DNA of 23,946 nt. Origin: a virus. Within the stretch, counting starts at the first letter, position 1, and each line of letters begins with the position of its first letter. The position numbers and the translations under genes were made by a program. The notes beneath the pieces are model-generated. The model was given only the letters and a program-made list of their open reading frames with translations, ran no database searches and was not told the origin of the DNA. Location: positions 1-23,946 of IMG/VR virus record IMGVR_UViG_3300023174_000627; one strand, written 5' to 3'. Below are positions 16,536 to 18,740 of this stretch, piece after piece.

Positions 16536-18740
16536 GTGGCAGCAGAAAATATTGACAAAACCGTTACAGGTACTGGGCCGTTCAACACCAAAATTCCTGG
16601 ACTCGGAGATCCAGCCGATATTCAAGCAGCATTAAGACTTTACCACTATGGATCAGAGACTTATGATGCAGCAGCAACAGTTCCAGGTCCTCTTCCAATC
16701 CCCTCAATTGCAAACCACCTTAAAACCCTTGTAGATGCAGACACTGCAGAAGCAGCAGCCCGTGTTACTCATCAAAACAAGACAACAAATGTCCACGGGA
16801 TCGCAGATACATCAGATTTAGTAACACAATCAGACTTGAGTGATGCAATAAACAATACAACAGGTGAGTATCCAGAACTTGCTGGAAGTGGTATTGAATG
16901 GAACGCTATTGATGAGCAATTTGACCTTGATCCATCTCTATTAAATAATAATACTGTAGTAGTTAAGACATCTGGATTTACTTTAAATGCCCTGGATGTT
17001 AATAAAACAATTTTACTACAAGCATCATCTCCAATGAATTTAAGTATCCCGCTAAATTCTGCTGTTAGCATACCTGTTGGATATAAGTATAATTTAGTTG
17101 AAATTGGTTCAGCAAGAACAACTTTTGTTCCAGCATCTGGAGTAACAGTAGGTAGCAAAAACTCACAATTATTTTTAGATGGACAATATAGCAGAGGAAC
17201 TCTTGTAAAGACTGCAACAGATTCTTGGATTTTGTATGGAGATGTTTATGAAGGCGTTGCAATAACTCCTACCCCTGTAGCACCTACCCCTGTAGCACCT
17301 ACCCCTGTAGCACCTACCCCTGTAGCACCTACCCCTACGCCTACACCAACTCCAGTTCCCGTACCAGTTCCTGTCCCTGTACCTACTCCTGTACCTACTC
17401 CTGTACCAACACCAGTACCTACACCAGTACCTACTCCAACACCTACTCCTACCCCAGTTCCAGTACCAGTTCCAGTACCAGTTCCAGTACCAGTTCCAGT
17501 ACCTACAGCCCCTAGTGGTTTTGCCTATTGGTTTACAGGATGTTGTCCAACAACTGGACTTCAAGTAACTGGAACAAGCAATAACTCATTTACAGAAGCG
17601 CTTAATTCTATGAATTCTCAATGCTCTGGTGGATCAATTACAAATACTCAAAACGGAAATTATGGAACTATCCCAACATTAAGTTGTCCTGCTGTTCCTA
17701 CTCCAACACCAACACCAGTTCCTGTAGCACCTACAAATCAATGGTATTGCTCTACAAGAGAAAATGATGGAACTACCGCTAACTACACAAGTAGCACCAA
17801 CGATACTGGTTGCTATAGTGGCGTTGCTGCAACAACATGTGTTTATGGTCCAGCAGGAACATCCTATCCAGCATTCCCTGCATTCCCATGCACACCAACA
17901 CCAACACCAACACCAACACCAGTCCCAGTTCCAGTTGCTCCAACACTTATAACATATTACGGATGCTGTTCTAGTGGAGATGGAGCAATAGGACAATATG
18001 CTAACTCTAGTGCTGCAGCAACAGGACTACAGCAATACTGTGCTCTAGAAGCAGGAAGCAATCTCGTAGGAGGAGTTTATACAACACCACAAAGTTGTAA
18101 TTCCCCTACCCCTGTTGCACCTACACCAGTTCCAACACCAACACCAACACCAGTTCCTGTAGCACCTACACCAGTACCTGTACCAGTCAACATATGTGCT
18201 GGAGACATGTCTATGCTTAATGCAAGTCAGTGTACTGCTTGTGGATATTACTACTCAACACTTTATGGAGAGTGTTTACCATCTAATCCAAATACACCTA
18301 CACCAGTAGCACCTACTCCAACTCCTGTTCCTGTACCAGTACCAGTTCCTGTAGCACCTACACCAGTTCCCGTAGCCCCTACACCTGTAGCACCCGTACC
18401 AGTTCCTGTAGCACCTACACCAGTTTATGTAGCACCTACACCAGTTCCTGTAGCACCATGTGCAGAATTCTACTGTGCAGCATACGGAGAATATATTTGT
18501 GTAGGATCTTACTGCCCAAGTGGTACTCCTACTCCTGTAGCACCTACACCAGTTTATGTAGCACCTACTCCTGTAGCACCTACACCAGTTTATGTAGCAC
18601 CTACTCCTGTAGCACCTACACCAGTTTATGTAGCACCTACTCCTGTAGCACCTACACCAGTTGCGCCAGTAGCATGTAATTGTACAAGAAATTATTGCTG
18701 GGAGACTTGCCCAACCTGTTGCCCAAATTGCGGATGTTAG
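16536..18740 (+). CDS. Long tail fibre: PTPV rods and Cys-rich modules
   Basis: A 734-residue protein. Residues 1 to about 243 are a globular N-terminal part ([39 protein letters not shown]) like other phage fibre adaptors. From there to the end, Pro-Thr-Val-Ala rods ([22 protein letters not shown]) alternate with six Cys-rich modules, at about nt 17509-17697, 17734-17890, 17944-18107, 18189-18293, 18457-18527 and 18671-18740. Modules 1 and 3 look homologous (both contain GCC then QC and a final C). The last has eight cysteines in 21 residues. The rods are plausible hydroxylation or O-glycosylation targets. It starts with GTG. It is followed directly by the modification-type operon. Confidence 0.8.
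17266..17508 (+). repeat. Tandem repeats encoding PTPVA / PVPV rod
   Basis: It starts with near-perfect 15-bp units (CCTACCCCTGTAGCA, encoding PTPVA) and passes to 6- and 12-bp PV/PT units. The near-identity at DNA level suggests recent expansion. Confidence 0.8.
18528..18660 (+). repeat. 36-bp tandem repeats encoding [12 protein letters not shown]
   Basis: At least three 36-bp units ([12 protein letters not shown]) are nearly identical at DNA level. Copy number probably varies between relatives and would change the fibre's length. Confidence 0.75.

Follow-up and report, generated by a model that had tools for sequence, protein, structure and literature searches.

A modular tail fibre in phages of freshwater bacteria whose Pro/Thr-rich rods co-vary with a downstream enzyme cassette

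In freshwater Nanopelagicales phage isolates, which infect freshwater Actinobacteria, tail fibre and collagen-like genes are reported to fall within a hypervariable island (PMC10202952). GT60 GlcNAc-transferases, a family relevant to the locus described here, modify Thr-rich mucins or the hydroxyproline of Skp1 (PMC8724618). The closest described proteins are minor tail proteins and tail fibres of Gordonia and other phages (PHROG 8780, 21978 and 18179), with which the present fibre shares a homologous C-terminal body domain. In the known minor tail proteins this domain ends the protein, whereas here it is followed by rods and Cys modules totalling about 490 residues, and a cassette of predicted modifying enzymes lies downstream. 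A search of open-access full text returned no account of such fibres. The window, that is, the whole stretch of DNA analysed, comprises 23,946 bases from IMG/VR and derives from a virus of freshwater bacteria.

The fibre gene and its relatives

The fibre ORF (16536-18740, + strand) encodes 734 aa with no internal stop. It runs from a GTG start at 16536, preceded by the ribosome-binding site AGAGGTGA, to a stop at 18738-18740. Residues 1-240 form a Cys-free body and residues 241-734 (494 aa) consist of six rods alternating with six Cys modules, which hold 4, 4, 4, 4, 4 and 8 Cys from module 1 to module 6. The preliminary description had read about 490 residues of rods with six Cys-rich modules, the last packing eight cysteines into 21 residues, and both readings agree with our count. 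The parts are as follows.

16536..17255, +, fibre body, residues 1-240, Cys-free, delimited by alignment of relatives
17256..17513, +, rod 1, PTPVAP / PTP / VPVP, containing a 15-bp tandem repeat
17514..17687, +, Cys module 1, 4 Cys, GCC...C...C family, the same family as module 3
17688..17735, +, rod 2
17736..17891, +, Cys module 2, 4 Cys, WYC family, with relatives also in VTP-rod fibres (L025)
17892..17945, +, rod 3
17946..18104, +, Cys module 3, 4 Cys, GCC family
18105..18188, +, rod 4
18189..18287, +, Cys module 4, 4 Cys, C...QCxxCG...GEC family, the commonest
18288..18458, +, rod 5
18459..18524, +, Cys module 5, 4 Cys in 19 aa
18525..18674, +, rod 6, containing a 36-bp tandem repeat
18675..18737, +, Cys module 6, the C-terminal tip, 8 Cys in 21 aa

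Over residues ~128-237 (~135-237 on the map of parts) the body is 32-37% identical to the domain at the C-terminus of minor tail proteins of phages (PHROG 8780, E 2.6e-13). Of the body, only this end is matched in isolate phages, 231 of them, mostly through Gordonia phage minor tail proteins with E down to ~1e-11. The gene lies in a tail gene region whose order is conserved among relatives, with two collagen-like tail genes (13551-15460) upstream and a baseplate-wedge-like gene downstream. The ORF is a modular tail fibre, presumably borne on the virion. A Phage_cement_2-like protein (1.7e-6) is encoded at 22322-22870, between the cassette and the baseplate-like genes.

Searching IMG/VR with the fibre body gave 30 close relatives, and hundreds are present in the database. 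From an alignment-based body search we took the best 80 of 437 relatives and enlarged the sample by two more scans. The resulting set holds 82 distinct full-length fibres with at least 2.5 kb downstream, identical arrays having been removed. Rods are present and the reading frame is unbroken across the array in all 82 of these complete fibres, and the body is Cys-free in 81. The frameshift, assembly error or untranslated relatives that would have undone the initial reading were not seen; the frame is kept through the array in every relative. No relatives of the fibre body were found in GTDB genomes. The host is probably an actinobacterium, because the actinobacterial regulator WhiB occurs in 5 of 10 longer relatives and, among 14 control genomes, in Corynebacterium alone.

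Modules, rods and the downstream genes

Modules 1 and 3, thought at first to be a duplication, have the same Cys layout and are ~25% identical to each other. Identity reaches 67% between module 1 and a module of L015, and 81% between module 3 and one from L031, a phage with only 55% identity in the body. Because each is closer to modules of other phages than to its counterpart, they are two members of one family and not recent duplicates. Module 2 was sought in isolate phages, with no match. Cutting all fibres between rods yielded 468 segments, which fall into ~130 families at 60% identity. There are 66 pairs in which one module (at least 80% identity) accompanies different rod types, even where the bodies are nearly half different, and whole modules differ between the near-identical L021 and L025. 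The comparison of module number, order and repeat copies among relatives that had been proposed as a check shows modules shuffling freely and copies varying.

Among the 123 distinct modules 18-85 aa long, 113 have an even Cys number (p 1.5e-23), and several of the 10 odd ones are cutting artefacts. Counts so overwhelmingly even fit the use of module cysteines in pairs. With 4 Cys, five of the six modules have too few for the three threaded disulphides of a knottin or cystine knot. The earlier picture of disulphide knots on stiff rods, unlike ordinary fibres, therefore survives in part. Small Cys modules with even Cys numbers do sit on rods, unlike the fibres of known isolate phages, but knots are not indicated and metal binding is possible. 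Other modules in relatives include PASTA (1e-10), and the tips include EGF-like-looking ones and Hint-like ones whose match is below the Pfam cut-off. The Hint/intein-like tip (CVEENTLVDTPNGQIPVKNLQVGD...GILIHN) is found in L041, L051, L096, L097, L100, L074 and L185, where self-processing or attachment is conceivable. TSP1-like modules (WSxWSxCSGGxxxRxR; Pfam E 0.009, below cut-off) occur in L012 (2789-4564) and L015 (3325-5445), the latter with two identical copies. A thioredoxin-fold protein is encoded in 3 of 10 long relatives, without a clear link to disulphides. The rods and cassette can exist without the Cys modules, because L165 and L186 have rod-bearing fibres with no Cys at all, yet a cassette of c5, c8 and epimerase (enzyme families described below).

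The rods are built from Pro, Thr, Val and Ala. Rods are alike within one fibre and unlike between phages, with PTPVAP, PTPTP, VTPAVTP, VTPVVTP and TTTTAAP among the types. Tandem Repeats Finder reports a perfect 15-bp unit x 4.6 at 17268-17336 in rod 1 and a perfect 36-bp unit x 3.8 at 18528-18662 in rod 6, the 36-bp pattern occurring 4 times against 0 expected. These repeats had been called near-identical and taken as signs of recent expansion; both are in fact perfect, and repeat expansion is borne out by copy-number differences among near-identical phages. Repeat-copy differences separate L021 from L022 (minus 4 aa) and L093 from L094. The differences between near-identical phages in repeat copies (L021/L022) and in module blocks (L021/L025) show that the locus is still changing. 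Apparent GVT collagen-like repeats in VTP-rod phages were rejected as an antisense reading of rods.

The order of fibre, small CxxC gene and variable enzymes is kept in nearly all relatives, the enzymes being predicted dioxygenases, glycosyltransferases and nucleotide-sugar enzymes. In the window these genes are:

18786..19025, +, 79-aa protein with conserved CxxC...CxxCGC, DUF6171/phrog_13558-like (Pfam match below cut-off)
19027..19608, +, cassette gene 1, putative 2OG-Fe(II) dioxygenase (family c5), from the invariant HxD...H and fold
19611..20645, +, cassette gene 2, glycosyltransferase of fucosyltransferase fold (family c8), from structure matches to the PDB
20612..21634, +, cassette gene 3, GDP-mannose-3',5'-epimerase, from its match to Arabidopsis GME

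The 79-aa protein lies directly 3' of nearly every fibre, irrespective of the cassette, and might serve the fibre as a metal or assembly factor. In c5, H97xD99...H143 is invariant among 19 sequences. Its AlphaFold model (pLDDT 91.5) has AlkB, Dictyostelium prolyl hydroxylase, PHD2 and P. putida P4H as nearest folds (TM ~0.6), which places the triad on the double-stranded beta-helix of 2OG-Fe(II) dioxygenases. By sequence, c5 does not fall among prolyl 4-hydroxylases. One member (L101) matched no Pfam family, the window's own copy gave a weak 2OG-FeII_Oxy_2 match (E 0.012), and PDB profile searches with c5 and c7 returned no matches. On its model, c5 would work like a 2OG hydroxylase. The c8 model is of modest quality (pLDDT only 72.6). 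All 50 PDB matches listed for it are GDP-fucosyltransferases (plant FUT1, POFUT1/2, FUT8, NodZ; best E ~1e-6, TM 0.36-0.48), so c8 belongs to that superfamily by fold. By sequence it joins no curated family, with no Pfam match and POFUT2 at E ~0.1 (0.095). No counterpart of this glycosyltransferase was found in isolate phages. The epimerase is homologous over its full length to Arabidopsis GME (2c59; 2.5e-96, residues 6-328). GDP-mannose-3',5'-epimerase makes GDP-L-galactose and GDP-L-gulose.

Relatives carry further families. The c1 family is prolyl 4-hydroxylase-like by sequence (PF13640 1e-19; B. anthracis P4H 2e-9), and c6cup is a cupin with an invariant HxD...H. Family c7 matches the PF11397 GlcNAc-transferases (1.7e-31, 110 bits against a cut-off of 21) and has an invariant DxH (D89 and H91), as expected for the GT60 type, to which PF11397 corresponds. 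GT61 and a radical SAM/SPASM protein also occur. In L020 and L051, a GT61-like glycosyltransferase and a cupin dioxygenase are fused in one ORF of 541-543 aa, which suggests a coupling of hydroxylation and glycosylation. A second 2OG-Fe(II) oxygenase-like gene lies ~5 kb upstream (10919-11518, - strand) and recurs in some relatives whatever the type of rod, Pro-poor ones included. Two genes of isolate phages were considered as independent tests and rejected: the GT60-like gene of Xanthomonas phage XacN1 adjoins a carbamoyltransferase, not a fibre, and the c1-like gene of cyanophage S-H9-1 has no annotated fibre beside it.

Co-variation of rods and cassette

For 64 non-redundant fibres, rod 3-mer distance was compared with cassette distance while body distance was controlled. 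Rods and cassette correlate (partial Mantel r=0.57, p=0.0005). Modules do so far less (r 0.16), even the tip module situated between last rod and cassette (0.13), and the body-rod and body-cassette correlation is only 0.12. The first rod follows the cassette (0.54) as closely as the last (0.55). When cassettes were shuffled only within clades of close relatives, the association held (permutation p=0.001). Simple block inheritance is opposed by the low value of the tip module and by the first rod, the furthest away, performing as well as the last.

The body tree implies at least 25 changes of rod class; the classes were named after inspection of the data and are not used by the Mantel and permutation tests. 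VTP rods go with c6cup in 14 of 15 fibres, and c7, c8 and c4 are absent. Of 28 fibres with PTPVA rods, 24 carry c5 and 18 carry c8. All eight fibres with Thr-rich, Pro-poor rods have c7 (GT60-like GlcNAc-transferase), and none of the eight has c1, c5 or c6cup. These main dioxygenase families accompany 53/56 Pro-rich rods versus 0/8 Pro-poor rods (Fisher 4e-8). Independent tree contrasts are nearly all in one direction (6:0, 7.4:0.1, 9:0.3 and 3.5:0), the contrast between Pro-poor rods and missing dioxygenase comprising only 4 supported independent pairs. There are exceptions: four Pro-poor fibres retain a different short 2OG enzyme (c1s), and L167 has Pro-rich rods with no dioxygenase within 3.6 kb. 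The rods without Cys in L165 and L186 also speak against the general model set out below.

A natural switch is seen between L002 and L007. Their bodies are ~98% identical over 423 nt, the same module families follow in the same order, and the three modules compared share 96-100% DNA identity. The rods, however, are PTPVAP in one and PTPTP/PTPAP in the other, and the cassettes are dioxygenases plus c13 versus P4H, radical SAM, GT60-like enzyme and epimerase. The cassette falls outside the coordinates first described and had been overlooked there. Since its enzyme content follows rod sequence, the bare stiff rods first envisaged are unlikely and decorated rods are likely.

A proposed role for the cassette and known systems

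On comparative evidence, we consider it probable that the protein is a modular receptor-binding tail fibre, that its Cys-paired modules can be exchanged, and that enzymes inherited along with it hydroxylate and glycosylate its rods. The N-terminal body would attach to the tail tip or baseplate. Pro/Thr-rich rods would hold the exchangeable small Cys-paired modules apart, and the modules and Cys-rich tip would contact the host surface. The rods would be substrates of the cassette encoded directly downstream. The prolyl-hydroxylase-like 2OG dioxygenase may hydroxylate rod residues, most likely Pro, the epimerase may supply GDP-L-galactose (or gulose), and the fucosyltransferase-fold enzyme may attach L-galactose or a related GDP-sugar to the rod. 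The outcome would be an extended, stiff, protease-resistant stalk, extensin- or mucin-like, in which the binding modules are separated by spacers whose surface chemistry varies. As in extensins and Skp1, Pro-rich rods would depend on a hydroxylase for a hydroxyl to which sugar can be attached; Thr-rich rods would already bear hydroxyls and go with the GT60 GlcNAc-transferase family. A rod change in a phage lineage would thus bring an enzyme change, the rod acting as an acceptor code for the cassette. The broader proposition, that freshwater Actinobacteria phages make such hydroxylated and glycosylated receptor-binding fibres with shuffled disulphide modules, rod and cassette switching together as a matched substrate-enzyme code, strikes us as evenly poised. 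If so, stalk surface chemistry, protease resistance or reach could be changed without altering the binding modules.

The cassette could instead modify the host surface, or phage DNA, and co-vary with the rods only through a shared, exchangeable host-recognition island. Glycosyltransferases could act on a host envelope or on DNA, those next to tail fibres in SAR11 phages have been read as LPS modifiers (PMC7029224), and the hypervariable island of freshwater Actinobacteria phages, spanning tail fibre and collagen-like genes, offers a precedent (PMC10202952). However, block inheritance predicts that the tip module should track the cassette like the rods do, and it does not (r 0.13 versus 0.55). 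The distant first rod matches as well as the last, and prolyl-hydroxylase-like enzymes have no obvious role on surface glycans. We regard this explanation as unlikely. Still less likely is that the dioxygenases hydroxylate the collagen-like tail proteins (13551-15460) rather than the rods. Two such genes do lie upstream, and collagen is the classical P4H substrate, but a dependence on rod sequence is not predicted. Collagen as the sole dioxygenase substrate can be rejected, since the phages with Pro-poor rods and at least 3 kb of upstream sequence all retain collagen-like gene(s) while lacking c1, c5 and c6cup.

A further question is whether the Cys modules of a genuine fibre are metal-binding knuckles and not disulphide-bonded beads. 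Most modules have 4 Cys, often as CxxC pairs, the commonest module, which has CxxC, bears a weak resemblance to rubredoxin/FYVE metal sites (E 0.03), and the fibre folds in a reducing cytoplasm, which is unfavourable to disulphides before lysis. Against this, modules with 6 and 8 Cys and adjacent CC pairs are common, and Cys parity is generally even but not a multiple of 4. Metal-binding knuckles are a tentative reading, which we doubt. It is extremely improbable that the array is low-complexity sequence mis-assembled or untranslated. Exact tandem repeats are prone to assembly error, but the frame is open in all 82 distinct complete relatives, identical fibre sequences were recovered from independent assemblies (L002-L006), and synonymous codons vary within the rods (Pro CCT 58, CCA 58, CCC 3).

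Decoration of the rods by the cassette, the reading we prefer, would provide a testable substrate for the many 2OG oxygenases and glycosyltransferases that phages encode next to tail genes and that are usually assigned a host- or DNA-modifying role. It would set prolyl-hydroxylase-like, GT60-like, GT61, fucosyltransferase-fold and GDP-mannose epimerase families beside a single substrate, and the natural rod-cassette pairings would be a ready table of enzyme specificities. Among phages, the fibre resembles virion-glycosylating mycobacteriophages, whose glycosyltransferases are proposed to modify virion proteins (PMC11256854). Confirmation of the rod-modification code would make the fibre a type of virion protein of which the searchable literature has no description. 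We know of no description there of rod/enzyme matching or a hydroxylase in the mycobacteriophages. Skp1 of Dictyostelium and Toxoplasma (PhyA with GT60 Gnt1) is a parallel for relatives with PTP rods, where a prolyl hydroxylase is paired with a GT60-like GlcNAc-transferase. Mucin-type GlcNAc transfer in T. cruzi and Dictyostelium (PMC8724618) is a parallel for relatives with Thr-rich rods, which have the same glycosyltransferase family without c1, c5 or c6cup. Unlike in those systems, the substrate here would be a viral fibre, and the analysed fragment uses c8, not c7. Plant extensins and other hydroxyproline-rich glycoproteins likewise combine Pro-rich repetitive rods with prolyl-hydroxylase-like enzymes and glycosyltransferases, and plants also have the GDP-L-galactose enzyme (GME). 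The phage fibre differs in that it is encoded by a phage and would be convergent in design, its rods having no sequence homology to extensins. Bacterial viruses would then employ a hydroxyproline/mucin strategy that is otherwise familiar from plants, animals and protists.
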